DNA from: a virus
Virus record (IMG/VR): IMGVR_UViG_3300035670_000052
Coordinates: 55,576 to 119,575 of that record
Reading direction: 5' to 3' (one strand)
DNA length: 64,000 nt
Of this stretch, positions 7,731-62,667 are shown one piece after another (the stretch's first letter is position 1; every line of letters begins with the position of its first letter). Position numbers and translations under genes: made by a program. The notes below the pieces were generated by a model, which was not told the DNA's origin, did not search any database, and worked only from the letters and a program-made list of their open reading frames with translations.

Positions 7731-7757
7731 GAGGGGACTTGATCCCCTCTTTTTTTT
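7731..7757 (+). terminator. Intrinsic terminator of the three-peptide unit
   Basis: A 7-bp stem GAGGGGA/TCCCCTC (7731-7737, 7743-7749) with loop CTTGA is followed by eight T residues. It is strong and lies 5 nt after the last stop codon of the unit. Confidence 0.9.
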
Positions 7758-7767
7758 ATGCTAAAAT
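7739..7767 (+). promoter_or_regulatory. Promoter nested in the terminator hairpin
   Basis: TTGATC (7739-7744), 17 nt, then TAAAAT (7762-7767) preceded by TG. The -35 lies in the loop and 3' arm of the terminator at 7731-7757 and the -10 just after the T-run. The same architecture recurs at 53997, 55380, 55716, 62269 and 62634. It would drive the operon starting at 7789. Confidence 0.55.
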
Positions 7768-7788
7768 GAATTGAAGTAACTATAAAGT

Positions 7789-7941
7789 ATGGACAAAGAA
7801 AAACTAAAACTTATTGTTCGTAATCTTGAATTACTGATTGATTCTTTGAAAGTAGAAATTTACTCTGATACTTCTGCATCTAAAGCACCAAAAAGAGTTA
7901 TTGATGATTATGACGAAATTTTCGAGGAATATGACAACTAG
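7789..7941 (+). CDS. Small acidic hypothetical protein
   Basis: A 50-aa frame with a helical N-half (KEKLKLIVRNLELLIDSLKVEIYSD) and an acidic end rich in Asp/Glu (VIDDYDEIFEEYDN). It overlaps the next gene by 11 nt. The pattern is familiar from cyanophage genomes next to thyX, but no function is known to me. It is shorter than typical gene-finder cut-offs yet fits the gene-packed context. Confidence 0.6.
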   Translation: MDKEKLKLIVRNLELLIDSLKVEIYSDTSASKAPKRVIDDYDEIFEEYDN

Positions 7942-8101
7942 TAGAGCAAAAAAACTGGTTAAACTTCTGGAAAGAATGTTGAAACAAGATCATCTATTTT
8001 CAGAAGAGCAACTGGTAGAAATCAAACAACAAATGCGAGTAGTAAAACAAGAACTTGCAGAATTTGAGACACAAACATCAAAAGGATTTGGAAAGAAATG
8101 A
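7931..8101 (+). CDS. Small helical hypothetical protein
   Basis: The start ATG 7931 has GAGG at 7924 and overlaps the previous stop. The 56-aa product (MTTSRAKKLVKLLERMLKQDH to QTSKGFGKK) is highly charged and almost entirely helical, compatible with a short coiled coil. It overlaps thyX by 4 nt, so all three genes are probably co-translated. Function unknown. Confidence 0.65.
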   Translation: MTTSRAKKLVKLLERMLKQDHLFSEEQLVEIKQQMRVVKQELAEFETQTSKGFGKK

Positions 8102-8850
8102 AACCCATTAAAGCAAAAGACCTTCTTGAACTGGATAAAAGACTTGAAGTTGTAAAACTTCAGGGATACCCAATCCCAGAACAAGTTATTTGGCAGGCAG
8201 GAAAGGGCGATTATTCTGAAGTTCCGATTCATAATGTTCCAGTTCCCAACCATCATGAATGTGGTCAGTGGATTGTTGAACAATTGTTAGCTAATGAGAG
8301 GGGGCATTGGGGTCCAATTGAGCACCCTGGCATTACTTTTTCTTGTGCTGGATTTGTTCATAATGTTATCGTTCAGGCAAGAACTCATCGTATCGGAACC
8401 AGTTGGGATGTTCAGTCTCAGCGTTACACTGGAAAACGTGTTCTTAAAGTTGCCAAGCGTGAACTCCATGTTGAGGAAGTCTTCTACGTGCGCCCTCAGG
8501 GGTACTACACTAACCGTAAGGGTAAGAAGTATGAATGGGCCGAAGAGCACCGACAACGCAAGTTAGAGCGCATTTTGAGTGAGTGTGAGGAGTATGCTGA
8601 TTACTATGAGCAGGGTATGTGTGAAGAGCATATTCGGGATTATCTTCCTCAGGCAATTCGTCAGAACTTTGTAGTCTCATTTAATCTTCGTTCAGTTCTT
8701 CACTTTATGGATCTTCGTTCTAAACTTGATGCTCAAATTGAAATTCAAGCACTTTGTGATGCAATTGCTCCCGAACTTCAAAAATGGTCTCCTAATGTTT
8801 GGAGGTATTATGAAGAGAAGCGTCTTCACAAGGCACGTTTGAGTCCATAA
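8098..8850 (+). CDS. thyX: Flavin-dependent thymidylate synthase ThyX
   Basis: This 250-aa enzyme methylates dUMP to dTMP using methylenetetrahydrofolate, FAD and NADPH, supplying thymidine for phage DNA. The diagnostic ThyX signature (RHRxxSxxxxSxR type) is present as ARTHRIGTSWDVQSQRY at residues about 93-109. It is preceded by HPGITFSCAGFVHNVIVQ and followed by the C-terminal LRSVLHFMDLRSKLDAQIEIQ helix, which carries substrate-binding arginines. The length is typical. It lies in a cluster with small genes upstream and phoH downstream. Confidence 0.95.
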   Translation: MKPIKAKDLLELDKRLEVVKLQGYPIPEQVIWQAGKGDYSEVPIHNVPVPNHHECGQWIVEQLLANERGHWGPIEHPGITFSCAGFVHNVIVQARTHRIGTSWDVQSQRYTGKRVLKVAKRELHVEEVFYVRPQGYYTNRKGKKYEWAEEHRQRKLERILSECEEYADYYEQGMCEEHIRDYLPQAIRQNFVVSFNLRSVLHFMDLRSKLDAQIEIQALCDAIAPELQKWSPNVWRYYEEKRLHKARLSP

Positions 8851-8853
8851 ATA
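8845..8853 (+). promoter_or_regulatory. Late-promoter-like motif
   Basis: CATAAATA overlaps the thyX stop codon and lies 25 nt before the next ATG. It resembles the T4 late consensus TATAAATA and the cyanophage form CTAAATA. The next genes are not structural, so it may be a chance AT-rich match. Confidence 0.3.
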
Positions 8854-8877
8854 TTTTTGTGTTGATTTTGTAACTTT

Positions 8878-9120
8878 ATGGCAATATATCCAATTATTAA
8901 CAAAGAGACTGGTGAGAAAAAAGTCATTGAGATGAGTGTTAATGATATTATGCAGTGGTATAAAGACAATCCTGAATGGAAAAGGGATTGGTCTGAAGGA
9001 TGTGCTACTCCAGGAGAAGTTGGTGATTGGAGGAATAAACTAACCTCCAAGCATCCTTCGTGGAATACCGTCCTAGAAAAAGCATCAAAAGCACCAGGTT
9101 CAACTGTTAAGAAACTCTAA
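8878..9120 (+). CDS. Conserved hypothetical cyanophage protein
   Basis: This 80-aa protein (MAIYPIINKETGEKKVIEMSV..) has a Trp-rich centre (MQWYKDNPEWKRDWSEG) and a C-terminal KHPSWNTVLEKASKAPGST segment. The layout resembles phage proteins related to FmdB zinc ribbons, where a degraded metal site is followed by an HPxWxxxLxKxxxAxPxS helix. No CxxC pair is left here, so the relation is tentative. It sits between thyX and phoH. Confidence 0.65.
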   Translation: MAIYPIINKETGEKKVIEMSVNDIMQWYKDNPEWKRDWSEGCATPGEVGDWRNKLTSKHPSWNTVLEKASKAPGSTVKKL

Positions 9121-9121
9121 T

Positions 9122-10801: not shown

Positions 10802-11388
10802 GTCCTTTTGAGACATATCAAACTTATCTTTCTATGAAAAGTCATTTTACTAATAGTAAATATGACTTTTTTAAATATGGGGGTAAATCTAGAGCAACCG
10901 TTACTTCTTTTAACAAACGGCGCGATAAATATTTTTTTGAGAAGACAAGTCGCAAGTATTCTGATAAAGAAGTCGTAGATTTTTTAGTATCAAACTTTGT
11001 AGCATCGGATTCCCCTAGCAACTTATGGATTGGAGAAATTATCAATTCTGGAGAAAGGACCTACGCAGATTGGATGCGGAGACAGCAGAGTTTGACTTAC
11101 TTGTTCAAAGAACAATCAACGGAATTGTTCTCCGAAAGCGAATTGGAAACTGTGTTCAACTGCTCCAAAGGACATCCTATAGTCCTCAAAAGATTTCTAA
11201 GCGGGAAATTATCACCAGAAACATTCGTAATTTACGACAAAATATTTTCAATCGTAAAAGATTTTGACAAGAAACTGTTGGATCCCGTATGGGAAACTGT
11301 TAGTTTAAAGATTAAAAAGTATTCTTCGTTTCTAAATATTGATGTATTTCAGTACAAAAAAATTTTAAGGGAAATCATAGATGAGTAA
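10798..11388 (+). CDS. 59: gp59-like loader of DNA helicase
   Basis: This 196-aa all-helical protein begins MSPFETYQTYLSMKSHFTNSKYD, a start shared by T4-like gp59 proteins, followed by YGGKSRATVTSFNKRRDKYFFEK. The C-half is Lys-rich (DFDKKLLDPVWE..). gp59 binds forked DNA and gp32 and loads the gp41 replicative helicase. Its position two genes before gp32 fits this role. It overlaps both neighbours by 4-8 nt. Confidence 0.85.
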   Translation: MSPFETYQTYLSMKSHFTNSKYDFFKYGGKSRATVTSFNKRRDKYFFEKTSRKYSDKEVVDFLVSNFVASDSPSNLWIGEIINSGERTYADWMRRQQSLTYLFKEQSTELFSESELETVFNCSKGHPIVLKRFLSGKLSPETFVIYDKIFSIVKDFDKKLLDPVWETVSLKIKKYSSFLNIDVFQYKKILREIIDE

Positions 11389-11713
11389 CTTTTTTGACTC
11401 CGATATTATTCAAGACGAATTGAAAGAAATCAATAAGTTGCAAGAAGAGATTTACGGTAGTATTCTCACTTTTGGTGGAATGACCCGCGAAACAAAACTG
11501 GAACATATTGAAAAACTTGAAATCTTGTTAGAAAAACAAAGAGTGATGTACACTAGATTATCCCTTTCAGATGATCCAAAGGCGGTCGAAATGAAAGAGA
11601 ACCTACGCAAATCAGTTGCACTGATGGGTTTCCCACCAGAAACTGATATGAATATATTATTCTGTAGTATGAATAAAACAATCGAATCTCTCAAGCAATA
11701 TATTGACCTCTGA
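11381..11713 (+). CDS. DUF1825 family protein
   Basis: This 110-aa helical protein starts MSNFFDSDIIQDELKEINKLQEE and contains GMTRETKLEHIEKLEILLEKQRVMYTRLSLSDDPKA, the typical DUF1825 pattern. DUF1825 is found in cyanobacteria and their phages and has no confirmed function. Its presence supports a cyanobacterial host. The stop codon sits inside the promoter for gp32. Confidence 0.85.
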   Translation: MSNFFDSDIIQDELKEINKLQEEIYGSILTFGGMTRETKLEHIEKLEILLEKQRVMYTRLSLSDDPKAVEMKENLRKSVALMGFPPETDMNILFCSMNKTIESLKQYIDL

Positions 11714-37241: not shown

Positions 37242-37256
37242 GCTAACTAGCACCTC

Positions 37257-50038: not shown

Positions 50039-50041
50039 TAC

Positions 50042-50070: not shown

Positions 50071-50136
50071 ACCTTTGTCCTGGTTGAAGATAAGACTTAG
50101 CTTTCTTTAAGACACTTTAGAAACCGTCCACTACAA

Positions 50137-50156
50137 CCCCGTCAAGGGGATTTTTT
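50137..50156 (+). terminator. Intrinsic terminator before the helicase gene
   Basis: CCCC-GTCAA-GGGG (50137-50149), A, then T6. It lies 98 nt after the fibre stop and ends upstream transcription just before the helicase promoter. Confidence 0.75.
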
Positions 50157-50159
50157 ATT

Positions 50160-50167
50160 GCTATAAT
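50160..50167 (+). promoter_or_regulatory. Extended -10 promoter for the helicase gene
   Basis: TGCTATAAT (TATAAT at 50162-50167) right after the terminator T-run, 24 nt before ATG 50191. A clear -35 is absent; the hairpin fills that position. Confidence 0.6.
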
Positions 50168-50190
50168 ATCAAGACAGTCAACCAAACATC

Positions 50191-51423: not shown

Positions 51424-51444
51424 TTTTTAACAGGAGATCTTATT

Positions 51445-51812: not shown

Positions 51813-51834
51813 ATACACATAATGCTTTAATTCA

Positions 51835-53550: not shown

Positions 53551-53984
53551 AAACCTACAATCTCACCATCACTGAAAAGCAGGCACGAGCACTTGTAGAT
53601 GCTACTGATTTGCTTCAAAGAGTTCAATTGGGTCAGTGGAGGGAAATTCAAGATAATCTTCCTCTTCAAAAACCAATTGATTATACAGAATTTCACCAGG
53701 ATATGAAAATTATTGGAGCAATTCTATCCAAACATATGATTGATGGTATTGATGGTGGTGCTTCCTCACTTGGAGTAGGACATCAAGACCTTCCAGAAAG
53801 TAATGGTATTCTTTATGACCTTCATCGGGTCATTCGCAGGAAACTTTCTGTGGAACGAGCAGTAGAGCAGGGTATTATTGAGAATGAAAATGTTTCCAGA
53901 AATGAAATGCCTATCACAGTGGATTTTGATTTACCTATGAAGTGGGGAACCGAACCACTTGCTAAACTGGAAAGGGTCAGTTGA
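53547..53984 (+). CDS. Hypothetical protein
   Basis: This 145-aa protein begins MKTYNLTITEKQARALVDATDLLQRVQLGQWREIQDNL. A helical first half is followed by MIDGIDGGASSLGVGHQDLPESNGILYDLHRVIRRKLS, a Gly-rich loop then basic helix. It is the last gene of its operon; a composite terminator/promoter begins right after its stop. Function unknown. Confidence 0.6.
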   Translation: MKTYNLTITEKQARALVDATDLLQRVQLGQWREIQDNLPLQKPIDYTEFHQDMKIIGAILSKHMIDGIDGGASSLGVGHQDLPESNGILYDLHRVIRRKLSVERAVEQGIIENENVSRNEMPITVDFDLPMKWGTEPLAKLERVS

Positions 53985-54031
53985 GAAACTGGCACAGGGT
54001 ATCTCCACAGGTGCCCTTTTTGCCGTATAAT
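53985..54031 (+). promoter_or_regulatory. Composite terminator/promoter cassette A
   Basis: AACTGGCACA block, hairpin GGGTA/TGCCC (53997-54016) with loop, T5 (54017-54021), then TATAAT at 54026-54031. A weak -35 (TCCACA, 54004-54009) with a 16-nt spacer lies inside the hairpin loop. It ends the upstream operon and starts the next. Confidence 0.65.
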
Positions 54032-54052
54032 AATTTCAGTTCAAACAAACCA

Positions 54053-54913: not shown

Positions 54914-55086
54914 ACTACCTCTGCCTACTTGATGGTGTTGTAGAATACGCCAGCACAGATCTCTACCAATTCAATCATTATCGTATGATGTATTACGAAG
55001 ACCACAAAGATGCTGATGTAGAGTATCTTGTGCTAACTGATGAAGAGTATAATGCTATGTTCCCTGTAGAGGAGGATGAAGAATGA
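54910..55086 (+). CDS. Hypothetical protein, paralogue of the gene at 55946
   Basis: A 58-aa frame, MNYLCLLDGVVEYASTDLYQFNHYRMMYYEDHKDADVEYLVLTDEEYNAMFPVEEDEE. A near copy (about 80% identical) is at 55946-56125. Both are acidic with a beta-alpha-beta pattern. Duplication in a 1-kb distance supports recent gene expansion. Function unknown. Confidence 0.65.
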   Translation: MNYLCLLDGVVEYASTDLYQFNHYRMMYYEDHKDADVEYLVLTDEEYNAMFPVEEDEE

Positions 55087-55367
55087 GCGGCGGACACTTC
55101 AACGATTGCGGATACGAATACTATAATGTCTCACAGTTTGCTGATGAACTTGAAGCAGAAGTTCGTAACAACTTTGAGAAGGATGAGTATGGTTATGCCT
55201 ATGAGTATCCCCCAGAAGTTTGTGAGTATCTTTTAGAACAGGTGCCCAAAATGCGTAAGATGGCAGAGATTATGAGGGCGGTGGATTACTTATACAGCGG
55301 CGACCACGGTAGCGATAGTTTTATGGAAAGGGTGAAAGAAGTAGAAGAGAAATATAAGGACACTTGA
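55083..55367 (+). CDS. Conserved phage protein (MSGGHF family)
   Basis: This 94-aa protein starts MSGGHFNDCGYEYYNVSQFADELEAEVRNN and ends with DYLYSGDHGSDSFMERVKEVEEKYKDT. I recognise the MSGGHF start and the (Y/W)LxSGDxGxxSFxER end as a widespread phage family with no function that I know. Its end overlaps the next cassette (stop at 55365). Confidence 0.65.
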   Translation: MSGGHFNDCGYEYYNVSQFADELEAEVRNNFEKDEYGYAYEYPPEVCEYLLEQVPKMRKMAEIMRAVDYLYSGDHGSDSFMERVKEVEEKYKDT

Positions 55368-55368
55368 A

Positions 55369-55414
55369 GAACTGGCACAGGGCATCTCCACAGGTGCCCT
55401 TTTTGCCTTATAAT
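55369..55414 (+). promoter_or_regulatory. Composite terminator/promoter cassette B
   Basis: AACTGGCACA, hairpin GGGCA/TGCCC (55380-55399), T5 (55400-55404), TATAAT (55409-55414). TCCACA (55387-55392) lies in the loop at 16-nt spacing. Nearly identical to A. Confidence 0.7.
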
Positions 55415-55436
55415 ACTCTTATAAGCAATCAAACCG

Positions 55437-55703
55437 ATGGACTACGAAACTGAAATCATAGATGGACGCAAAGCAGTTGTCCGTCATTTCTTCAAATCAC
55501 ACGAAATTCAAGTTGGTTCTCGTTGGGCACGGGCAGATGGTTCTAAAGGTTTTGTGACCGTTGAAGGTCTCAATTCTTATGGGAGCACAGACCCTTGGTA
55601 TGAAGTAGTTTATTCTTGGGAAGAAAATGGTGTGAAGAAAATCTGGCAAAAAGAAACTTTTGCCTTTCAATGTCGTTATTGTTTGATTATTGAGGACACT
55701 TGA
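55437..55703 (+). CDS. Hypothetical protein
   Basis: This 88-aa protein (MDYETEIIDGRKAVVRHFFKSHEIQVGSRWARADGSKGFVTVEGLNSYG) is a beta barrel-like small domain with EVVYSWEENGVKKIWQKETFAFQCRYCLI. An SH3-like or RNA-binding role is possible but unproven. It is a one-gene operon between cassettes B and C. Confidence 0.6.
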   Translation: MDYETEIIDGRKAVVRHFFKSHEIQVGSRWARADGSKGFVTVEGLNSYGSTDPWYEVVYSWEENGVKKIWQKETFAFQCRYCLIIEDT

Positions 55704-55750
55704 AGAACTGGCACAGGGCATCTCCACAGGTGCTCTTTTTGGTTTATAAT
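55704..55750 (+). promoter_or_regulatory. Composite terminator/promoter cassette C
   Basis: AACTGGCACA, hairpin GGGCA/TGCTC (55716-55735), T5 (55736-55740), TATAAT (55745-55750). The loop holds TCCACA as in A and B. Confidence 0.65.
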
Positions 55751-55773
55751 ACTCTCATACACACAGACACCTG

Positions 55774-55944
55774 ATGACTTTTCTATCTGGACTTGAAACT
55801 TACTTTCTGTTTTTTATTGGAGTTTATGCGGTAAATCAGGTTTGGAATTTCTTTACAAAAGAACGAACCCAAATTCAAATCTTCACCGAAGCACTTCTTT
55901 GGGCAGGAGTTTGGATTGTTTTTGATAAAATCGTTGGTATTTGA
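55774..55944 (+). CDS. Small two-helix membrane protein
   Basis: Start ATG 55774; 56 aa. Two hydrophobic stretches (GLETYFLFFIGVYAVNQVW and FTEALLWAGVWIVFDKIV) frame a short basic loop. Likely inserted in the host membrane. Unknown function. Confidence 0.6.
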   Translation: MTFLSGLETYFLFFIGVYAVNQVWNFFTKERTQIQIFTEALLWAGVWIVFDKIVGI

Positions 55945-55945
55945 A

Positions 55946-56125
55946 ATGTCTCTCAATTATTTGTGCCTTGTTGATGGTGTCGTAGAATACGGCAGTACAG
56001 ACCTCAACCAATTCAATCATTATCGTATGTTGTATGCCGAAGACCACCAAGATGCTGATGTAGAGTATCTTGTGCTGACTGATGAAGCATACAACGAAAT
56101 GTTCCCTTGTGAGGATGAAGAATGA
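55946..56125 (+). CDS. Hypothetical protein, paralogue of the gene at 54910
   Basis: This 59-aa protein (MSLNYLCLVDGVVEYGSTDLNQFNHYRMLYAEDHQDADVEYLVLTDEAYNEMFPCEDEE) differs from the 54910 gene at only about 12 positions. It overlaps the next start by 4 nt. Function unknown. Confidence 0.65.
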   Translation: MSLNYLCLVDGVVEYGSTDLNQFNHYRMLYAEDHQDADVEYLVLTDEAYNEMFPCEDEE

Positions 56126-56403
56126 CTAACGAAGAACTCCCAGTATCAAACGAATTCATCACATTTGTGAGAATTCGACTTGACCACGAACAAAAACAAC
56201 AATTCCGTCGTTATCTAAATCTCCATTATCTTGGTGATGTGAATTGTAATGAGTATGATGAGAATATGAAAATTGTTCCCAAATACCCAGAGAAAGAAAC
56301 ACAAGAGTTCAAAGATGCTATGTGGAGAGCAGATATGTCAGTAGATTATCAAGTCAAAGTAGTTTATGATGTAAATGGTCAATGTAAATTGGAGTTGCTA
56401 TGA
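56122..56403 (+). CDS. Hypothetical protein
   Basis: This 93-aa protein (MTNEELPVSNEFITFVRIRLDHEQKQQFRRYLNLHYLGD..) has a helical first half and a beta end with a KYPEKETQEFKDAMWRADM segment. Translationally coupled to both neighbours. No recognised domain. Confidence 0.55.
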   Translation: MTNEELPVSNEFITFVRIRLDHEQKQQFRRYLNLHYLGDVNCNEYDENMKIVPKYPEKETQEFKDAMWRADMSVDYQVKVVYDVNGQCKLELL

Positions 56404-56567
56404 TTGACCTCAAAAGATATAAAATCACTATTACTGTCACCACAAGAGATAGTGCTTTTGATACAAAAATTGGAGACCCTATTTGGCATCTCCTTGATAT
56501 TGAAAATGGAGAACGACTTGATAGTGTTTCTTTACCTGTTGAATTACCTTTGATTAATTATGAATAA
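56400..56567 (+). CDS. Hypothetical protein
   Basis: A 55-aa frame (MIDLKRYKITITVTTRDSAFDTKIGDPIWHLLDIENGERLDSVSLPVE) that looks beta-rich. It overlaps the neighbouring genes by 4-8 nt. Function unknown. Confidence 0.55.
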   Translation: MIDLKRYKITITVTTRDSAFDTKIGDPIWHLLDIENGERLDSVSLPVELPLINYE

Positions 56568-56823
56568 ACTCTTTCAATACGATAAAAAAGTTTGGGAAAA
56601 TGATGAAACTGACCGCACTTGGCAGTTCGGTGTCATCAACAATCGTTCATTACTTTGGGTGAATTATGAAAATCCCAGTAGTTTAGTTCATAGTAATGGT
56701 GGATTTCACATCATGCTCTCATTTCTTACTTCTTCTTCTCTTTTTGGAGTAGATTTTCAAGTTGGTAAGATTGGTTTGAGTTTTAACTTTTTCACAGAAT
56801 ACTTTGATGGGTGGGATGACTAA
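56560..56823 (+). CDS. Hypothetical protein
   Basis: This 87-aa protein (MNKLFQYDKKVWENDETDRTWQFGVINNRSLLWVNYENPSSLVHSNGG..) is beta-rich with many aromatics (SLFGVDFQVGKIGLSFNFFTEYFDGW). Operon member, overlapping the next gene by 1 nt. Function unknown. Confidence 0.55.
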   Translation: MNKLFQYDKKVWENDETDRTWQFGVINNRSLLWVNYENPSSLVHSNGGFHIMLSFLTSSSLFGVDFQVGKIGLSFNFFTEYFDGWDD

Positions 56824-57023
56824 TGTTTAACTTCAAAGAGGACTGGGAAGAACCAACTCGTAAGGCAATTCAAAAAATGCTGACTTATAAGGGATACATT
56901 CCATCCAAAGACCTCAACGAGTATCAGTATCAAACCTATCTTCAAGTAGCATCACCATACGAACTTGAAAAGGACATTATCACCGAAAAAACGATGCTTA
57001 AAGTAAATGATGAAGAATTATGA
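56823..57023 (+). CDS. Hypothetical protein
   Basis: This 66-aa acidic helical protein (MFNFKEDWEEPTRKAIQKMLTYKGYIPSKDLNEYQYQTY..) overlaps neighbouring genes by 1-4 nt. Function unknown. Confidence 0.55.
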   Translation: MFNFKEDWEEPTRKAIQKMLTYKGYIPSKDLNEYQYQTYLQVASPYELEKDIITEKTMLKVNDEEL

Positions 57024-57253
57024 TTAAAATCTATTGTGTGGTTGATAATGTTGATTTGGGTTATCACGTTCTGTGTGCTTCCACTTCCAAGGATAAAGCA
57101 CAAGTAGCATTAGATATAAAGATTAAACAAAAATATGATTATGCTATTAAACAACAAGTGCTTCGTGGATTTGATTACGAGAAAGCAAAAGAAAAAGTAG
57201 ATGAATGCTTCTGGACTCCTTATGAAATTATTGAGATTGAGGTGGAAGAATGA
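57020..57253 (+). CDS. Hypothetical protein
   Basis: This 77-aa protein (MIKIYCVVDNVDLGYHVLCASTSKDKAQVALDIKIKQKYDYAIKQQV..) has a beta-alpha-beta fold pattern with a Lys/Glu-rich helix. It is in the operon that starts at cassette C. No domain recognised. Confidence 0.55.
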   Translation: MIKIYCVVDNVDLGYHVLCASTSKDKAQVALDIKIKQKYDYAIKQQVLRGFDYEKAKEKVDECFWTPYEIIEIEVEE

Positions 57254-57489
57254 ATAAGGACGCATACTACGACTGGATTGATGAAAACGACACATATCCA
57301 GAACATTCTCATAAGTGGATAGTGGGACTTTATAACAAATATGAAGGTGTAGAGGGACTTCATAGATACTTTGGAGTTTTTGAAACCAAAGAAGAAGCAA
57401 AAGTATTCGCAGCAGATTATAAAGACAAATATACAAAACCAGGATTTATTTCAAGTATAAGAGTGTTCCCTTTGTGTGAGGTATTATGA
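57250..57489 (+). CDS. Hypothetical protein
   Basis: This 79-aa protein (MNKDAYYDWIDENDTYPEHSHKWIVGLYNKYEGVEGLHRYFGVFETKEEAKVFAADYKDK..) is acidic and aromatic. Overlaps neighbours by 4 nt. No known domain. Confidence 0.55.
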   Translation: MNKDAYYDWIDENDTYPEHSHKWIVGLYNKYEGVEGLHRYFGVFETKEEAKVFAADYKDKYTKPGFISSIRVFPLCEVL

Positions 57490-57686
57490 CCAACCCTGAT
57501 TACCGAATTGAAGAATGCTTTGATTTTGATTGTATGACTACTTACTATGTTATTCAAAGATATAATGTTGTTCAAGCAGAGTATGTTCTTCACTCAACAA
57601 AAAGATTTGGACAACTTATGCAAGCAAAAGAGGCAATTAGGATGTTAAGGAGATACAAAGAACCAATTTATCATTATATGGAGTGA
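57486..57686 (+). CDS. Hypothetical protein
   Basis: This 66-aa protein (MTNPDYRIEECFDFDCMTTYYVIQRYNVVQAEYVLHSTKRFGQLMQAKEAIRMLRRY..) is an alternating beta and helical protein with a basic C-terminal helix. Overlaps the previous gene by 4 nt. Function unknown. Confidence 0.55.
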   Translation: MTNPDYRIEECFDFDCMTTYYVIQRYNVVQAEYVLHSTKRFGQLMQAKEAIRMLRRYKEPIYHYME

Positions 57687-57689
57687 GAA

Positions 57690-57866
57690 ATGACAAAACT
57701 CTACAATCGTCCTATGAATTTCTTTGAGAAACTTTCTGCTGGGTATTATTGGTTTGGTGAATGTTGGAGTGAGTGGTGCTATACTATGAGAAGTGAAGAC
57801 GGAGAGTTCTTTAACTATCTTCAAAGTGATTATGTCCGTTATGAACAGGATATGTATTATGACTGA
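57690..57866 (+). CDS. Hypothetical protein
   Basis: A 58-aa frame (MTKLYNRPMNFFEKLSAGYYWFGECWSEWCYTMRSEDGEFFNYLQSDYVRYEQDMYYD). Rich in aromatic residues; Cys pair. It overlaps the next gene by 8 nt. No recognised domain. Confidence 0.55.
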   Translation: MTKLYNRPMNFFEKLSAGYYWFGECWSEWCYTMRSEDGEFFNYLQSDYVRYEQDMYYD

Positions 57867-58032
57867 TTGGTTGTCTGGTTTTAGAGAAGAAATCAAACAA
57901 ATTAGAGAAGACAACAAACAAATTAGAAAGGAAGTTGAAAGATTGCGAAAAGAAAATGAAGCACTTCGTTCCATTACTCCTAAAAAATTATTAGAGATTG
58001 TGGAAAAATCTGTAAAGGAGGACACTTTCTAA
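57859..58032 (+). CDS. Small coiled-coil protein
   Basis: Start ATG 57859 gives 57 aa, with IKQIREDNKQIRKEVERLRKENEALRSI, a heptad-rich coiled coil resembling a leucine zipper without the Leu ladder being complete. May dimerise. It is the last gene before cassette D. Function unknown. Confidence 0.55.
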   Translation: MTDWLSGFREEIKQIREDNKQIRKEVERLRKENEALRSITPKKLLEIVEKSVKEDTF

Positions 58033-58076
58033 ACTGGCACAAGACCTCACCACAGACCCTGTGGATGCCCTATAAT
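58032..58076 (+). promoter_or_regulatory. Composite regulatory cassette D (hairpin without T-run)
   Basis: AACTGGCACA, hairpin CCACAG-ACC-CTGTGG (58050-58064), then TATAAT at 58071-58076. There is no T-run, so termination is doubtful, but the -10 and upstream block are kept. Confidence 0.55.
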
Positions 58077-58101
58077 ACTCTCATACACAAAGGAACTCCA
58101 A

Positions 58102-58386
58102 ATGCTTGATGCTTTTACTGATTATCCTATTCCATCTTATGGTGATGTTGCGGGAGAAAAAGCACCTATTCGTAGAGCAAAAATCTTGACCTACGATAGA
58201 AATAAGTATTGTGATGTGCTTGTCTATCAAGTAGATAAAGATGGAGATTTGAGAGGAACTGTTGTTAATTTTAAGCAGTTTTATCTTTATAAAAATGAAG
58301 CACGACTTGATGATGGCATTCCATTCACTGATGAAGAACTGAAAACTCTTCCTTGGACTAAAATAAGTTCTCCTCATTCCATTTGA
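58102..58386 (+). CDS. Hypothetical protein, paralogue of the gene at 61028
   Basis: This 94-aa protein starts MLDAFTDYPIPSYGDVAGEKAPIRRAKILTYDRNKYCDVLVYQVDK and ends PWTKISSPHSI. It is about 85% identical to the gene at 61028, including the AAGGAACTCCAA leader. A beta-rich domain with KYCDVLVYQV and TDEELKTLPW. The duplication carries its upstream promoter. Function unknown. Confidence 0.65.
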   Translation: MLDAFTDYPIPSYGDVAGEKAPIRRAKILTYDRNKYCDVLVYQVDKDGDLRGTVVNFKQFYLYKNEARLDDGIPFTDEELKTLPWTKISSPHSI

Positions 58387-58392
58387 TATAAT
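58387..58392 (+). promoter_or_regulatory. Candidate -10 element
   Basis: TATAAT directly after the stop codon of the 58102 gene, 22 nt before the next start. No clear -35. It has a matching copy at 61304-61309. Confidence 0.4.
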
Positions 58393-58413
58393 GACCTCAT
58401 ACACAAAGGACTG

Positions 58414-58620
58414 ATGACTAACACCGCATACCAAATCTGGGAAACATTCAAAGCAGAACTTACACAACCAGCAACAGATGATATGAAAGAAGCATTAGCA
58501 TCTTCTATTCGTGTGATTTCTTCTCTCATTTATAGAGATGGAGTGCTTGCAGATGAACCTTGGCATTTTTATATTGCTCAAGAACTAAATGAATATGCTG
58601 ATGAGGTGGAGGCACTATGA
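58414..58620 (+). CDS. Hypothetical protein, TERA-family-related
   Basis: This 68-aa helical acidic protein (MTNTAYQIWETFKAELTQPATDDMKEALASSIRVISSLIYRDG..) is related in layout and its C-terminal E(V/L)EAL ending to the genes at 58617 and 59035. It overlaps the next start by 4 nt. Function unknown. Confidence 0.6.
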   Translation: MTNTAYQIWETFKAELTQPATDDMKEALASSIRVISSLIYRDGVLADEPWHFYIAQELNEYADEVEAL

Positions 58621-58823
58621 CTGAAAGAGCACAACAGATTATGGATGTTTTCTATAAGGACGAAGATTTGGATGGTGATTTTATTCCAGATAAAATTGTT
58701 GTTGCGAATGTTCTTCGTAAATTGAATAGTATTTTTGCTGAAGAAGGATATGGTGGTGATGAATTTTCTTGGCGTGTTTTTAGTGAAATTATTGATATAA
58801 TTGATGAATTGGAGGCACTCTAA
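58617..58823 (+). CDS. Hypothetical protein, paralogue of the 59035 gene
   Basis: This 68-aa protein (MTERAQQIMDVFYKDEDLDGDFIPDKIVVANVLRKLNSIFAEEGYGG..) shares the MTERAxxIM start and the DELEAL end with 59035-59205. Helical and acidic. It looks like part of a small family expanded in tandem. Function unknown. Confidence 0.6.
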   Translation: MTERAQQIMDVFYKDEDLDGDFIPDKIVVANVLRKLNSIFAEEGYGGDEFSWRVFSEIIDIIDELEAL

Positions 58824-59038
58824 TGATTTTAGATGAAGAAATCCGTGAACTTGCTAACACCTATGGGTTTGATAGACACATATGTAAAACAACACACGAC
58901 ATTTACTGGGAATGTGATGAAAAAGACTTCTTGAAGTTTGCCCGAGAACTTTATGATGAGGGTTATACTAAAGGTTTTAAAGTAGGGCACGATGCTGGTT
59001 GGGAATTAAATGAAGAAGTATCACGCAGAGGATTATGA
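58823..59038 (+). CDS. Hypothetical protein
   Basis: This 71-aa protein (MILDEEIRELANTYGFDRHICKTTHDIYWECDEKDFLKFARELYDEGYTKGFKVGHDAGWELNEEVS) is helical and carries GYTKGFKVGHDAGWE near its end. Coupled to both neighbours. No recognised domain. Confidence 0.55.
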   Translation: MILDEEIRELANTYGFDRHICKTTHDIYWECDEKDFLKFARELYDEGYTKGFKVGHDAGWELNEEVSRRGL

Positions 59039-59205
59039 CTGAAAGAGCAAAAAAGATTATGAAAGCATACGAAGCAGAGGATACATACAACTTTCCAAAT
59101 GATGGAGTTGCTGCTGCTCTCCGTAAGGTTGTAGAAGAACTCAAGTATATCGGTATTACTGAAAAGAACATCCTTGAACTTGCTGATGAATTGGAGGCAC
59201 TATGA
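59035..59205 (+). CDS. Hypothetical protein, paralogue of the 58617 gene
   Basis: A 56-aa frame (MTERAKKIMKAYEAEDTYNFPNDGVAAALRKVVEELKYIGITEKNILELADELEAL). It shares the start MTERA and the tail ELADELEAL with 58617 and 58414. Probably the shortest member of a local family. Function unknown. Confidence 0.6.
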   Translation: MTERAKKIMKAYEAEDTYNFPNDGVAAALRKVVEELKYIGITEKNILELADELEAL

Positions 59206-59390
59206 TTACTCTTGATACACTAAAAGATAGTGTTTATTCTCTTCATCTCACAATAGAGCAGGATGAACAAGTTATGGATATTATAGAAACTGCTTATCGT
59301 CTTGGATGTGAAAATGGGTATGATGAAGCAGGAAGAATATATGCTCCAATTATTGATAAACTTATGACTTCTGTGGAAGAACTGAAATGA
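59202..59390 (+). CDS. Hypothetical protein
   Basis: This 62-aa helical protein (MITLDTLKDSVYSLHLTIEQDEQVMDIIETAYRLGCENGYDEAGRIYAPII..) overlaps its neighbours. No recognised domain. Confidence 0.55.
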   Translation: MITLDTLKDSVYSLHLTIEQDEQVMDIIETAYRLGCENGYDEAGRIYAPIIDKLMTSVEELK

Positions 59391-59608
59391 AAAACTTTGA
59401 TGAACTTGATTGGATAGTTTTGTCTGTATTCTTTATTATAATCGTTGCTGCTACTTCTATCACTTATAGTGAGCAACAACAACGAGCACTCTTTCAACAA
59501 ACATACAATAAGAACTTGGAGTGTCGTCAAGCACTCAAAAATAATACAAAAAGTTTTGTTAATGAGATTTGTGGTCCTATTCCTGTGATTGGAGATTTTG
59601 TGAAATGA
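59387..59608 (+). CDS. Small membrane protein
   Basis: This 73-aa protein has one strong hydrophobic helix (LDWIVLSVFFIIIVAATSITY, about residues 7-27) followed by a polar tail with two Cys (CRQALKNNTKSFVNEICG). Likely an inner-membrane anchored protein or holin-like candidate; no clear lysis pair nearby. Function unknown. Confidence 0.55.
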   Translation: MKNFDELDWIVLSVFFIIIVAATSITYSEQQQRALFQQTYNKNLECRQALKNNTKSFVNEICGPIPVIGDFVK

Positions 59609-59805
59609 ACGATGAAAGTGTGATTGGAACAGTTTGTCTTGGTATTCTCGCAACTATTGGTGTTGCATTTCTTTTAGGCACTCGGTTTGGTTTTGATGAT
59701 GGTGTTGTAGAAGGGAAGAATGAAGGTATTGTGTATTGTGTAGAGAAACCCAAAGAGTGTAAGATTGCTTATGATTACCTGAAACTTCAAGAGAAACAGA
59801 AATGA
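59605..59805 (+). CDS. Small membrane protein
   Basis: Start ATG 59605 gives 66 aa with a Gly/Ala hydrophobic helix (SVIGTVCLGILATIGVAFLLG) and a polar end with two Cys (VYCVEKPKECKIAYDYLK). It overlaps the previous membrane gene by 4 nt, so the two may work together. Function unknown. Confidence 0.55.
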   Translation: MNDESVIGTVCLGILATIGVAFLLGTRFGFDDGVVEGKNEGIVYCVEKPKECKIAYDYLKLQEKQK

Positions 59806-60086
59806 ACCAAATACTACAAGGTTGGAAAATGGTTCTCAAAGATTATCGGCACTGGAAAATGATACTCAAATATCCTTATGATGCTTTTGATTGTGCTGTT
59901 TTCTTTGGTAATCTTGCTCAACCACCAAACTCACTTGATGATTATATCAAAGAATTGAAAGAACTTGACCCAGATTGGGAAAAAAATTATTATGATAATC
60001 TCTGGGTTCTTTATGATGATATTGGGGAACGAATGAACGAAACAGATAAGTTGCTTGAAGAAGTTGATGAGGTATTGAAAAAATGA
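59802..60086 (+). CDS. Hypothetical protein
   Basis: This 94-aa protein (MNQILQGWKMVLKDYRHWKMILKYPYDAFDCAVFFGNLAQPPNSLDDYIKELKELDPDWEKNYYDNLW..) is helical with a coiled-coil-like acidic end. Coupled to the membrane genes. No recognised domain. Confidence 0.55.
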   Translation: MNQILQGWKMVLKDYRHWKMILKYPYDAFDCAVFFGNLAQPPNSLDDYIKELKELDPDWEKNYYDNLWVLYDDIGERMNETDKLLEEVDEVLKK

Positions 60087-60292
60087 CTAAATGCACCTGT
60101 TCTTACATCCAAATAGGATACAAAACCTCCAACACCAAAAACCTCAATCCAGATTGCCCTCTTCACGGAACTGATAGTGTGTGGTATAATAGTCCAGAAC
60201 AAGTCAAAAAAAGAGATGAAAGGTCTCAACGACTTCGGGAACTTTATGATGCTGCTCGCAAAGCAAGAGAGAATGTAAATGAGAAACTATAA
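60083..60292 (+). CDS. Zinc-knuckle-like protein
   Basis: This 69-aa protein starts MTKCTCSYIQIGYKTSNTKNLNPDCPLHGTDSV. The CxC, then C-P-L-H motif could bind a zinc ion; the pattern is familiar from small phage proteins. The C-half is a basic helix (KKRDERSQRLRELYDAARKARE). It may bind nucleic acid. It overlaps the next gene by 14 nt. Confidence 0.55.
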   Translation: MTKCTCSYIQIGYKTSNTKNLNPDCPLHGTDSVWYNSPEQVKKRDERSQRLRELYDAARKARENVNEKL

Positions 60293-60575
60293 GTTGGAAA
60301 AACTCCAAAATGGAGAAACATTCATCACAAGTGAGAAAGGAAACTCTATGGTTCCTCTTATTCATTCGGGACAAGAACATAAATTATCTCCCGCATCTGT
60401 TGAGGATGTAGAAGTGGGAGATATTGTTTATTGTAAGGTGAATGGAAAGTTTTATACTCATCTGGTAAAAGCAGTAGATGCGAATAAAGGTTGTTTGATT
60501 GGGAATAATCGTGGTAGAATAAATGGATGGACTAAAAGTGTTTATGGAAAAGTGGTGGAGGTTTTAACAAAATGA
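60279..60575 (+). CDS. S24/S26-like (LexA/signal-peptidase fold) small protein
   Basis: This 98-aa protein has GNSMVPLIHSGQ (Ser nucleophile region GxSMxPxxxxG), VEVGDIVYCKVNGKFYTHLVKAVDANK with a Lys in the position of the catalytic base (HLVKAV), and IGNNRGRINGW. This is the minimal fold of S24/S26 proteases (LexA/UmuD or signal peptidase). No DNA-binding domain is attached. It could be an active mini-protease or a decayed relative; unknown target. Confidence 0.65.
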   Translation: MRNYKLEKLQNGETFITSEKGNSMVPLIHSGQEHKLSPASVEDVEVGDIVYCKVNGKFYTHLVKAVDANKGCLIGNNRGRINGWTKSVYGKVVEVLTK

Positions 60576-60763
60576 TGGAACCAACTTGGTATATTTTGTA
60601 TGATGGGCAAAGTGTAGATGGTAGAGGAAATGCAAAGTATATTGGAAGAACTACTGATTTAGAGAAAGCAAAAGAACATTATAATAAGTGCCATAACAAT
60701 CCTTATAGTACTGGTTATGTAATGTTTTACACAGACACTGAAGCACACCGAATGTTTTTGTGA
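60572..60763 (+). CDS. Hypothetical protein
   Basis: This 63-aa protein (MMEPTWYILYDGQSVDGRGNAKYIGRTTDLEKAKEHYNKCHNN..) has a GRGNAKYIGRTTD segment recalling GIY-YIG-like small domains, but the YIG motif and catalytic residues are incomplete. Overlaps the preceding gene by 4 nt; start may be ATG 60575. Function unknown. Confidence 0.55.
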   Translation: MMEPTWYILYDGQSVDGRGNAKYIGRTTDLEKAKEHYNKCHNNPYSTGYVMFYTDTEAHRMFL

Positions 60764-60770
60764 GGTCACA

Positions 60771-60971
60771 ATGATTGAGATGAGAATTGTAGAACACGAA
60801 CTGGGAATGAAACCAGATATTCAGTATCGTTTTGTGATTTCTACTGATGATGCTTCTGTTCCTTTTATGAATACATCTATGAACTTAATTATGCCAAATA
60901 GTTTTGTTTGGAGTGAATGGAAAACTGCCGAATGGGTAAAAGCAGAGACACTTGAAGAACTGTCACAGTAG
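60771..60971 (+). CDS. Hypothetical protein
   Basis: This 66-aa protein (MIEMRIVEHELGMKPDIQYRFVISTDDASVPFMNTSMNLIMPNSFVWSEWKTAEWVKAE..) is beta-rich and precedes cassette F. No recognised domain. Confidence 0.55.
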   Translation: MIEMRIVEHELGMKPDIQYRFVISTDDASVPFMNTSMNLIMPNSFVWSEWKTAEWVKAETLEELSQ

Positions 60972-61002
60972 GCATCCAGAGTGGTCTGTGATGACTTATA
61001 AT
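60957..61002 (+). promoter_or_regulatory. Composite regulatory cassette F
   Basis: AACTGTCACA block, TCCAGA (60975-60980) and TATAAT (60997-61002) with a 16-nt spacer. The hairpin is not evident, and no T-run follows. It overlaps the preceding stop and lies before a duplicated gene. Confidence 0.5.
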
Positions 61003-61027
61003 GTTAGGACAAACAAAGGAACTCCAA

Positions 61028-61303
61028 ATGCTTGATGCTTTTACTGATTATCCTATTTCATCTTATGGTGATATTAATCCACCTATTCGTAGAGCAACAA
61101 TCCTGACTTATGATAGAAATAAGTATTGTGATGTGCTTGTCTATCAAGTAGATAAAGATGGAGATTTGAGAGGGACTGTTGTTAATTTTAAGTGTTGTTA
61201 TCTCTATAAAAATGAAGCACGACTTGATAAAGGCATTCCATTCACCGATGAAGAACTGAAAACTCTTCCTTGGACTAAAATAAGTTCTCCTCATTCTATT
61301 TGA
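61028..61303 (+). CDS. Hypothetical protein, paralogue of the 58102 gene
   Basis: Start ATG 61028 has AAGGAAC upstream; an earlier ATG at 61001 sits inside the -10 element. The 91-aa product (MLDAFTDYPISSYGDINPPIRRATILTYDRNKYCDVLVYQVDK..) is about 85% identical to the gene at 58102. The AAGGAACTCCAAATG leader is also copied. Function unknown. Confidence 0.65.
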   Translation: MLDAFTDYPISSYGDINPPIRRATILTYDRNKYCDVLVYQVDKDGDLRGTVVNFKCCYLYKNEARLDKGIPFTDEELKTLPWTKISSPHSI

Positions 61304-61309
61304 TATAAT
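61304..61309 (+). promoter_or_regulatory. Candidate -10 element
   Basis: TATAAT directly after the stop codon of the 61028 gene, 24 nt before ATG 61333. It parallels the element at 58387 and was probably duplicated with the gene. Confidence 0.4.
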
Positions 61310-61332
61310 ACTCTCATACACACAGAAACCTG

Positions 61333-61527
61333 ATGACTTCCACAATTCCTGCTTGTAAAGATTGTAAGCACTTCCAAGAAAGTCCTGATGAGATGTTTAG
61401 CACTTGTGCTCTTTATCAGTATGAGCAAATTGATTACTTCAACAGCAAAGTGAGTGAGTATAATTGTCTTGCTCTTGCTATGAGGGATAGAGAAAAATAT
61501 TCTGGACTTGTAGGAGACCCACAATGA
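61333..61527 (+). CDS. Cys-rich hypothetical protein
   Basis: This 64-aa protein has ACKDCKHFQES and STCALYQ plus YNCLALAM, a set of four Cys that could bind zinc or an iron-sulphur cluster. The pattern CxxCxxF..C...C resembles small phage proteins of the type C-x2-C-x-H/F. It overlaps the next gene by 4 nt. Function unknown. Confidence 0.55.
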   Translation: MTSTIPACKDCKHFQESPDEMFSTCALYQYEQIDYFNSKVSEYNCLALAMRDREKYSGLVGDPQ

Positions 61528-61691
61528 TTGAAATCCAAAAGAACTACAAACTCACACTCACAGAGCAACAAGCAAAAGAACTCTATGAATTTTTGAGAGG
61601 AGCAAAGGATTGTGGTCATCTATCTACTGACCGAGATTTGGTGCTTGTCTATCACGAACTCAAAAAACTCTTTGATAGTGGAATACGATGA
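61524..61691 (+). CDS. Hypothetical protein
   Basis: A 55-aa frame (MIEIQKNYKLTLTEQQAKELYEFLRGAKDCGHLSTDRDLVLVYHELKKLFDSGIR). The YxLTLTEQQAxxLY start resembles the 53547 protein (YNLTITEKQARAL), so they may be distant relatives. Function unknown. Confidence 0.6.
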   Translation: MIEIQKNYKLTLTEQQAKELYEFLRGAKDCGHLSTDRDLVLVYHELKKLFDSGIR

Positions 61692-61906
61692 AGAACTACC
61701 GCATCAAAAAAGAAACTTATGGTGATACTACAAAGTATTATCCACAAGAGAAATTTTTGTGGTGGTGGTATAATCTCTTTGCTTTTGATGTTTATTTTGA
61801 TGGTGGATATGATACTCTGGAAAAAGCACAGAAAAACTTGTGTATCTACTGTAGGGGAACTATGGTAGAATATATTAACTTTAACCCTAATGAGGATTGT
61901 AAATGA
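61688..61906 (+). CDS. Hypothetical protein
   Basis: This 72-aa protein (MKNYRIKKETYGDTTKYYPQEKFLWWWYNLFAFDVYFDGGYDTLEKAQKNLCIYCRG..) is rich in aromatics and overlaps both neighbours. No recognised domain. Confidence 0.55.
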   Translation: MKNYRIKKETYGDTTKYYPQEKFLWWWYNLFAFDVYFDGGYDTLEKAQKNLCIYCRGTMVEYINFNPNEDCK

Positions 61907-62244
61907 CTGCTGATTACAAACAACTTGCTCAAGAACTTTACAGGGTACTCAACAGATTTAGATGTTGGTCCCCAGAAATAGATGATGTTATCTCAAAATA
62001 CGAATACGCAACAACCAGAGGAACTGGACGAACCACTGCTCTCTATATGAAAGCAATCACAGAAGCACTTGAAAATCCTGGTAAGAGTGTGGAGTTTATT
62101 GACCATTATCCTCATACTTTTCTTAGTGCTAAAAGTCACGGAAGCAATCTGGCAAATATTATTATTAAACTGGGATATGATATTGCGGTTACTGTTCCTT
62201 CTGGAGATGGAAGAGTGTTTCTTTACAATAAGTTTGGACAATAA
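61903..62244 (+). CDS. Hypothetical protein with P-loop-like motif
   Basis: This 113-aa protein (MTADYKQLAQELYRVLNRFRCWSPEIDDVISKYEYATTRGTGRTTALYMKAITEALENPGKSVEF) contains RGTGRTTALYMKA, which matches the GxGRTT nucleotide-binding loop of phage P-loop proteins. The rest of an NTPase core is too short to see. Ends before cassette G. Confidence 0.6.
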   Translation: MTADYKQLAQELYRVLNRFRCWSPEIDDVISKYEYATTRGTGRTTALYMKAITEALENPGKSVEFIDHYPHTFLSAKSHGSNLANIIIKLGYDIAVTVPSGDGRVFLYNKFGQ

Positions 62245-62251
62245 GGACACT

Positions 62252-62302
62252 TACTAAATTGGCACAAGGGCACTTGAAATCAGGTGCCTTTTGTCGCATA
62301 AT
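62252..62302 (+). promoter_or_regulatory. Composite terminator/promoter cassette G
   Basis: Upstream AATTGGCACA, hairpin GGCAC/GTGCC (62269-62288), TTTT (62289-62292). The -35 TTGAAA (62274-62279) lies in the hairpin loop, with a 17-nt spacer to CATAAT (62297-62302). Confidence 0.7.
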
Positions 62303-62325
62303 ACTTCTATACACACAGAAGACTG

Positions 62326-62619
62326 ATGACTGCTGAACGCATTACAATCAAAGAAAGCAAAGATTTTTGTTACTATGGTGAGTTTTATGGTTCAATAGAC
62401 AAAATCATTTCCACACTCCAAAGGTGCAAAGAACAGGGTTGGGAAGGTATTGATTATGATTATGATTATGGGAATGGAGGAAAAGACTACTATGTCTACA
62501 AAACCCGACTTGAAAATGATGAAGAGTATGAAAAGAGAGTGAAACAAGAAGAGCAACAAAAAGAAAATCGTCGTAAACAATATGAACAACTCAAAAAGGA
62601 GTTTGGTAAGGACACTTGA
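62326..62619 (+). CDS. Hypothetical protein with charged helical tail
   Basis: This 97-aa protein starts MTAERITIKESKDFCYYGEFYGSIDKIISTLQRCKEQ, a YxxGE.YG(S/T)xxEI-like helix, then acidic DYDYDYGNGGKDYY and a Lys/Glu-rich coiled end (RVKQEEQQKENRRKQYEQLKKEF). It ends with DT like other genes that precede cassettes. Function unknown. Confidence 0.55.
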   Translation: MTAERITIKESKDFCYYGEFYGSIDKIISTLQRCKEQGWEGIDYDYDYGNGGKDYYVYKTRLENDEEYEKRVKQEEQQKENRRKQYEQLKKEFGKDT

Positions 62620-62621
62620 AG

Positions 62622-62667
62622 AACCGTCACAAGGGCACTTGAAATCAGGTGCCTTTTGTTGTATAAT
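62622..62667 (+). promoter_or_regulatory. Composite terminator/promoter cassette H
   Basis: AACCGTCACA, hairpin GGCAC/GTGCC (62634-62653), TTTT (62654-62657). The -35 TTGAAA (62639-62644) is in the loop, with a 17-nt spacer to TATAAT (62662-62667). Confidence 0.75.

Follow-up and report, generated by a model that had tools for sequence, protein, structure and literature searches.

A compact switch in cyanobacterial viruses: probable end of one message and start of another

Copies of the element in the window

The window, the whole 64,000-nt stretch of viral DNA analysed here, carries eight copies of a short element, which lie among small ORFs in the 50-63 kb region. Six of the seven sites of a preliminary description are among them, together with two further sites at 58019 and 60945. 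The element is about 85 nt long and consists of a palindromic box, a spacer of about 30 nt that often carries a hairpin, a -10 and then a start codon. The box consensus, GACAsTTnnnnAAsTGTC, is an 18-bp palindrome, and the -10 of the window copies starts 50-51 nt downstream of the box start; taking -12 as the first base of the -10 hexamer, the box occupies about -62 to -45, with its centre near -53. The copies and related sites are given below, with box scores and the E values of matches to a sequence model of the element.

50111..50167, + strand: copy before the uvsW-like helicase gene (ATG 50191); box 50111 (13/14), hairpin 50137-50149, T-run, -10 50162-50167; spacing 51; E 6.5e-5
53976..54031, + strand: copy; box 53976 (12/14), hairpin 53996-54017, T-run, -10 54026-54031; spacing 50; next ATG 54053; E 1.1e-15
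55359..55414, + strand: copy; box 55359 (13/14), hairpin 55379-55400, T-run, -10 55409-55414; next gene 55437; E 7.2e-21
55695..55750, + strand: copy; box 55695 (13/14), hairpin 55715-55736, T-run, -10 55745-55750; next gene 55774; E 4.6e-21
58021..58076, + strand: copy (site 58019) with a 6-bp hairpin (-7.5 kcal/mol) and without T-run; box 58021 (13/14), -10 58071-58076; next gene 58102; E 7.2e-17
60947..61002, + strand: copy (site 60945) with an imperfect hairpin and without T-run; box 60947 (14/14), -10 60997-61002; next gene 61028; E 2.7e-14
61304..61339, + strand: half element, -10 and leader only, before gene 61333; 35 of 36 nt as in 55745-55780; without box and without hairpin
62246..62302, + strand: copy; box 62246 (12/14), hairpin about 62266-62291, TTGAAA in the loop region, -10 CATAAT 62297-62302; spacing 51; next gene 62326; E 6.4e-15
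62611..62667, + strand: copy; box 62611 (13/14), hairpin 62631-62656, TTGAAA in the loop region, -10 62662-62667; spacing 51; next gene 62691; E 8.1e-19
7729..7767, + strand: non-member; terminator-like hairpin with eight T, overlapping TTGATC (7739) and TAAAAT (7762-7767)

The preliminary description had read six of its seven sites as one recurring hybrid of terminator and promoter with the -35 in the hairpin loop, and 50137 as the same without a clear -35, and all of the hairpins, T-runs and -10 sequences that it listed are present. The hairpins at these sites are G+C-rich and followed by a T-run (the stem at 50137 has 4 bp), with energies in the 33 nt preceding each -10 of -13.5 (7731), -7.6 (50137), -11.8 (53997), -13.8 (55380), -10.8 (55716), -15.4 (62269) and -15.4 kcal/mol (62634); those at 58019 and 60945, where the T-run is absent, are weaker. 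The overlap of the -35 position with the loop was confirmed, at 4-5 nt, for 7731, 53997, 55380, 55716, 62269 and 62634, as were the TTGA-type hexamers at 17 nt, namely TTGATC (4/6) at 7739 and TTGAAA (5/6) at 62274 and 62639. The best -35 at 53997, 55380 and 55716 is TCCACA (16 nt, 4/6). Site 50137 indeed lacks a clear -35 (best CCGTCA, 3/6), but the 13/14 box 51 nt before its -10 had been missed; uvsW relatives show the same arrangement. Site 7731 stands apart and is not a member, with a best box score of 6/14 and no match to the element model up to E 1.

Plain scans of 50000-64000 were only somewhat above chance, both for terminators (11 vs 7.8 in shuffles, sd 2.4) and for promoters (60 vs 43.6, sd 7.1). 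The combined layout of hairpin, T-rich tract and -10 gave 22 placements on 18 distinct hairpins over the two strands, whereas 40 dinucleotide shuffles gave 2.2 placements on average and never more than 7; six of these 18 hairpins belong to sites of the preliminary description, and the scan does not pick up stems as short as the 4 bp at 50137. The recurring layout is real and above chance, but what defines the element is the box upstream, whose distance to the -10 is fixed, rather than a -35 in the loop.

Model matches at 52596, read as coding sequence, and at 37253, weak and without the box part, were set aside. Palindromes scoring 11-12/14 without a model match occur at 2057, 15733, 25600, 27298, 41717, 57802 and 63384. 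Rfam gave no match at the element sites at gathering thresholds; its sole match is a glutamine riboswitch at 7247. Ten window proteins were compared with PHROGs: of gene 61333 and the seven genes that follow box elements other than the uvsW copy, 62326 alone found a match, to families without assigned function, and the same holds for the families matched by 7789 and 7301. Pfam returned nothing for the gene pair that is duplicated in this region.

Box, spacing and gene layout across phages

Sequence comparison shows the box, its spacing, the hairpin enrichment, the gene layout, the distribution and one cassette duplication ending in elements. Downstream of 127 distinct exact boxes, over 21-139 nt, an exact TATAAT was found 85 times, every one at 49-52 nt. 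Enrichment of the -10 at 50/51 nt is still seen with up to six box mismatches, and 8 of 87 mismatch-free boxes have no -10 there. Selection on one box half only, done both ways, still returned a conserved other half. Promoters of cobS were gathered through the CobS protein alone, and those of uvsW likewise by protein, the box not being used for selection. The box is found in 59/69 cobS promoters (about 1 expected), with the -10 at 49-51 nt in 67/69, and it scores 12-14/14 in 9/9 uvsW promoters, with a spacing of 51 in eight and of 60 in one.

A motif search in other cyanophages had been proposed. The element model matches 12/12 T4-like cyanophage records tried, with 5-41 matches each, counts that are upper estimates since partial matches are included. 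In Syn9 the matches include one upstream of cobS at 130378 and others at 44776, 51228 and 148756. No match was found in T4, Ma-LMM01, KVP40 or nt-1. The strict box also occurs, without the -10, in intergenic positions of an unrelated phage group (for example L002, L021, L023, L058 and L061), and the palindrome common to this group and the elements is 22 bp long. Two proteins of the group have relatives only at <60% identity. A box search of 84,980 genomes with one pattern, aimed at a host regulon, returned a single stretch, inside an ORF of a Chloroflexales contig, which was taken as coincidence and not as a regulon site; the pattern demanded a T before the box and fits just 28/316 phage elements and no window copy, so this result does not show that hosts lack box sites.

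The gene layout was analysed in 260 unique elements with sufficient flank. A same-strand ATG ORF of at least 40 codons lies within about 80 nt of the -10 in 235 of them (36 in the other-strand control), and 171 of those ORFs start 27-31 nt from the first -10 base. Upstream, an ORF ends within 60 nt of the box in 220/260, a count made without a control. Moreover, a cassette in the window is duplicated (58059-58419 and 60986-61338, a single case), both ends lying inside elements and half elements being left, the second of them, at 58387-58392, in the duplicate.

Hairpins, -35 and the proposed promoter

Hairpins occur in 91/180 non-redundant elements, compared with 30.4 in shuffled sequences (maximum 47), and hairpins followed by a T-run in 28/180, compared with 3.1 (maximum 8). 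The 45 non-redundant cobS spacers comprise 19 with a hairpin but no T-run, nine with both and 17 with no hairpin, giving 28/45 hairpins vs 2.1 when shuffled (maximum 6) and nine with T-run vs 0.2 (maximum 2); the arms are unlike in sequence between promoters. The loop overlaps the -35 position in 28/28 T-run hairpins because the hairpin fills the spacer.

The gene layout fits the earlier proposal that the element closes one operon and opens another, but hairpins with and without T-run both occur across phages, and since so many have none, "terminator" stays a presumption for many copies. In two stretches of S-CRM01, eight Rho-independent terminators are annotated in the deposited record, and 4/13 model matches there cover one of them. 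The element hairpins likely terminate the upstream transcript. T-run hairpins are present in 44/220 elements with an upstream gene, 6/40 without and 0/9 divergent, which is too few to decide and gives no clear tie. A divergent S-CRM01 copy has the right box half only and shows no evident hairpin, as would suit a promoter that does not also terminate.

We consider it rather probable that in T4-like cyanophages the element serves as a non-late promoter of composite build, with a box read by a putative activator and a spacer that often carries a hairpin. A dimeric DNA-binding protein, from either host or phage, would bind the box as an activator and, from this fixed distance, bring RNA polymerase of the host type to the -10. 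A poor -35 would then be tolerated, and the roughly 30 nt between box and -10 would be free; in many copies a hairpin in this freed spacer would end or protect the transcript of the upstream gene, which would place the -35 position in the loop. The element would occupy the gap between two genes and travel with gene cassettes. Activator binding, promoter activity and its timing, termination, and recombination at the elements are what we infer from these patterns. Counting against this reading are the exact boxes that lack a -10 at 50/51 nt, the many hairpins with no T-run and the lack of a clear tie of T-run hairpins to an upstream gene, the strict box without the -10 in the unrelated phage group, and the -35 findings given next.

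It is unlikely that we are dealing with an ordinary sigma-70 promoter whose -35 sits in a terminator loop, the box being a repeat without function that was merely copied along with it. The duplicated cassette does show copying, the two TTGAAA hexamers at 62274 and 62639 would suit such a promoter, and -35-like hexamers (at least 4/6) are enriched (73/180 elements vs 17 in shuffles; 9/28 elements having hairpin and T-run). This enrichment, along with the TTGACT carried by some S-CRM01 copies of the tRNA region, means that the -35 is not generally dispensable. Of the sigma-70 features, a -10 and a -35 at 16-18 nt, the element has a strong -10 and, in those 73, a -35 of at least 4/6; the TTGACA consensus is absent among 173 elements chosen by the right box half, and 50137 combines its box with no -35. 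The orthologous cobS and uvsW promoters, moreover, keep box and spacing though their spacer sequences diverge widely.

Very improbable is a box that works at the RNA level, where, together with the hairpin at the 3' end of the preceding message, it would signal processing or antitermination, the -10 being merely a neighbour. In most copies the upstream gene does end at the box, and the upstream stop codon is the TGA inside CACTTGA in 67/260 elements. However, the distance from box to -10 is fixed with or without a hairpin, positions 4 and 13 are pairable in only 30/69 cobS boxes, and the right-half copy precedes a divergent gene; the box as an RNA stem was rejected on these grounds. Least probable of all is an element that is mainly a recombination site for cassette exchange, with promoter and hairpin as passengers, which would suit the cassette ends inside elements with their half-element remnants and the four IMG/VR contigs (L047, L069, L075 and L110) where one same gene follows elements with differing spacers, but leaves unexplained the exact box to -10 spacing, the start-codon distance and the conservation at cobS and uvsW.

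Returning to the activator-dependent promoter, we tentatively suggest that T4-like cyanophages, reportedly without MotA and AsiA, could have an undescribed promoter class, in which a putative dimeric activator at the -53 box frees the -35 and lets a terminator sit inside the promoter. If so, the 22-bp palindrome in an unrelated phage group would hint at a factor serving more than one virus lineage. Found at its fixed spacing in all T4-like cyanophage records tried, the box is a concrete target for finding the binding protein, and scanning these genomes for the element gives predictions of non-late promoters and of many operon ends. One short element would join promoter, 3' end and cassette border.

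Comparison with known systems

T4 middle promoters combine a MotA box near -30 with a -10. The present element resembles them in having an upstream box and a -10 with a weak -35, but differs in the sequence and place of the box, a palindrome centred near -53, and the model has no match in T4. A 2010 review reports no alt, modA, modB, motA or asiA homologues in cyanomyoviruses, describes sigma-70-like motifs in some of these phages and not in others, and calls their early and middle control still unclear (PMC2984593). The Rho-independent terminators deposited for S-CRM01 are likewise comparable, being covered by some model matches, but a terminator corresponds to just the middle part of the element.

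PeSLs, named in PMC4503421 with citations of Arbiol 2010 and Comeau 2014, are composite promoter/stem-loop elements of T4-type phages. Our element likewise unites promoter and stem-loop in one short intergenic element. PeSLs are short, dispersed, placed between small variable genes and linked to cassette shuffling; early transcription is also among their features. The box element, too, is dispersed among variable small genes and tied to shuffling, by one duplicated cassette. The box was not found described in the literature searched, and an earlier description, for example in PeSL or Syn9 transcriptome work, is possible.

The element model gave six matches each in phi1 and RB49, covering model positions 26-77 only, which are presumably the published PeSLs. 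In 8/8 examined, TTGAC(A/G) is followed by a hairpin that forms the 17-nt spacer and by a TATAAT -10, with no box. In the cyanophage element, by contrast, the hairpin covers a weak -35 and a palindrome lies upstream, and the order TTGACA-hairpin-TATAAT does not apply at the sites of the preliminary description or in the 28 T-run hairpins, where the loop overlaps the -35. The nearest known kind is the PeSLs of T4-type phages, from which the box element differs as a variant.

The repeated element in the window

The source record (119,575 bp in IMG/VR, of which the 64-kb window is positions 55576-119575) was taken for a T4-like cyanophage. The near DNA matches of the window are three short pieces, two of them in Synechococcus phages, and its genes include two tRNA genes and thymidylate synthase-like, baseplate hub/lysozyme, tail-fibre and DNA-helicase genes, the last uvsW-like by our reading. 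Two very long ORFs (31711-36585, 1624 aa; 38312-44440, 2042 aa) adjoin a 2154-aa tail-fibre-like protein (24873-31337).

All the hairpin/promoter sites of the preliminary description were present as described. The combined hairpin/T-tract/-10 layout exceeded chance: there are 22 placements (18 distinct hairpins, including six of those sites), whereas 40 shuffles averaged 2.2 and never gave more than 7; simple terminator or promoter scans alone, run on 50000-64000, were nearer to chance. The sites had been grouped as one kind, and most are copies of one dispersed repeat, found at 53974, 55357, 55693, 58019, 60945, 62242 and 62607, in which an upstream palindromic box (GACAsTTnnnnAAsTGTC) is followed by a variable middle, a -10, a leader like ACTCTCATACACACAGA and the start codon. 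The hairpin at 7731, however, scores 6/14 for the box and is not a member; it may be the closing point of a small operon formed by the ORF at 7301 and the following feature:

7247-7292, + strand, RF01739, the aptamer of the glutamine riboswitch (36 bits against a cut-off of 35), preceding a 50-aa ORF at 7301

The site at 50137, listed as a hairpin, T-run and -10, is a diverged copy of the element, with a 13/14 box 51 nt ahead of the -10. From the model matches in this record, eight complete copies and a single half element were accepted in the window, confined to 50-63 kb and outside the structural genes. The matches at 52596 and 37253 were set aside.

Box, spacing and hairpin

Box counts were drawn from the window and from an IMG/VR scan for the box, which gave at least 120 stretches. 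For 127 deduplicated exact boxes, 85 exact TATAAT hexamers were found 21-139 nt downstream, all of them 49-52 nt away. Boxes with 0 to 6 mismatches had a -10 (at most one mismatch) at 50/51 nt in 79/87, 53/68, 45/57, 38/62, 34/80, 38/113 and 45/286 cases, respectively, with at most 11 at control spacings. With 7 mismatches the count was 42/892 (control mean 19, maximum 36), and with 8 it was so close to the controls (74/3027; mean 61, maximum 88) that the spacing signal is no longer distinct. Whichever half of the box was used for selection, the other was conserved, and the TTGACA consensus was absent from elements selected on one half. At L232, a locus ahead of a uvsW-like gene, the distance is 60 nt and not 51, about one helical turn longer.

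CobS relatives were gathered by protein, not by box (the best 80 of at least 600); one locus had too little upstream DNA, and the other 79 gave 69 distinct upstream regions. The palindrome matched at 11/14 or better in 59 of these (~1.1 expected from shuffles), and 67 had a -10 of at least 5/6 at 49-51 nt, the hexamer scored being the best one in the range of 25-79 nt counted from the box start, with ties settled towards 50. The 45 non-redundant spacers, from 78 of the 79 loci, held a hairpin in 28 cases (shuffles 2.1, maximum 6) and a hairpin with T-run in nine of these (0.2, maximum 2); the arm sequences are unlike. At all nine uvsW loci, two of them identical there, the box scores 12-14 of 14 and a hairpin with a 4-11 bp stem is present; the -10 is at 51 nt in eight and at 60 nt in one, the L232 locus. 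Eight have 5-7 T among the next 8 nt after the hairpin; at the remaining locus the T's were placed in the stem by the pairing program.

Among 180 non-redundant elements, a hairpin is present in 91 (30.4 expected, maximum 47 in shuffles), and hairpin plus T-run in 28 (3.1, maximum 8). As originally proposed, the -35 lies in the loop, which covers the best-placed -35 by 3-6 nt in 28/28 hairpins with T-run; it sits there because a hairpin of ~22 nt must fit a spacer of only 29-30 nt. A -35-like hexamer occurs in 73/180 elements, against 17 in shuffles, and in 9 of these 28. In S-CRM01, TTGACT is present in some of the copies close to tRNA genes; several, in the stretch 122000-154000 (L142), combine it with a TATGCT -10 and are possibly a subclass serving tRNA operons. 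From the enriched hexamers and the TTGACT copies, the -35 of the element is weak and variable rather than absent.

Distribution and gene context

A motif search in other cyanophages had been suggested; here the element was sought with a sequence-only model built from 89 elements (E up to 0.1). It matched all 12 T4-like cyanophage records tried, although many of the matches counted are partial or weak: 13 in the window's own record, S-CRM01 20, Syn9 5, S-PM2 8, P-SSM2 22, P-SSM4 12, P-HM2 14, S-RSM4 6, S-SRM01 26, S-TIM5 7, DSL-LC03 6 and ACG-2014f 41. T4 and Ma-LMM01 had no match at this threshold, and KVP40 and nt-1 had none either.

In 235/260 unique elements with flanks, the same strand has downstream an ORF that begins with ATG and spans 40 codons or more (control, the opposite strand: 36); 171 of these 235 begin at a distance of 27-31 nt, counted from the first -10 base. 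The upstream ORF ends close to the box in 220/260, a figure that stands without a control; in 67 elements its stop is the TGA inside CACTTGA. Among the genes that model matches precede are cobS (P-SSM2, S-PM2 and, with a weak match at E 0.005, Syn9), an endonuclease gene of P-HM2, the gene next after gp32 in P-SSM4 and, as a partial match, rnaseH in S-CRM01.

In the window, 58102 and 61028 form a duplicated gene pair (93% over 246 nt). The duplicated similarity (58059-58419 and 60986-61338) starts inside one element and ends in a half-element leader; the upstream spacers differ, and the same gene follows other spacers in four IMG/VR contigs. A second similar pair was seen among small ORFs (54922-55086 and 55964-56125).

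Proposed mechanism and comparison with known systems

Judging from sequence, a dimeric protein would bind the palindrome and switch the promoter on, and a promoter so activated would leave room in the spacer for a hairpin by which the upstream transcript is terminated or protected. The protein could come from host or phage; no candidate was found. The host-genome search used one pattern too narrow to tell whether hosts have boxes, and the explanation is independent of the box being absent there.

In an unrelated phage group (loci L002, L021, L023, L058, L061, L064, L073, L099, L114 and others), a 22-bp palindrome, TGACACTTGATAAACTG(G/T)CACA, is found in intergenic positions without a -10 at 50/51 nt; this group has terminase and GTA-like tail proteins, with relatives under 60% identity.

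PMC2984593 calls the control of early and middle transcription in cyanomyoviruses unclear, and a motif of this kind was not seen in the portions available of PMC3037559, PMC5490813, PMC5780444 and PMC5082946. The nearest known kind is the PeSLs, the composite promoter/stem-loop elements of T4-type phages. PMC4503421 describes these and lists a pair of potential stem-loops for S-PM2, of which that at 11369-11391 falls inside a model match (11348-11424). phi1 and RB49 have six model matches each, all inside model positions 26-77 and hence without the box; the elements fetched have TTGAC(A/G), hairpin and -10 without box in 8/8 cases. The cassette duplication in the window resembles the cassette shuffling described for PeSLs.
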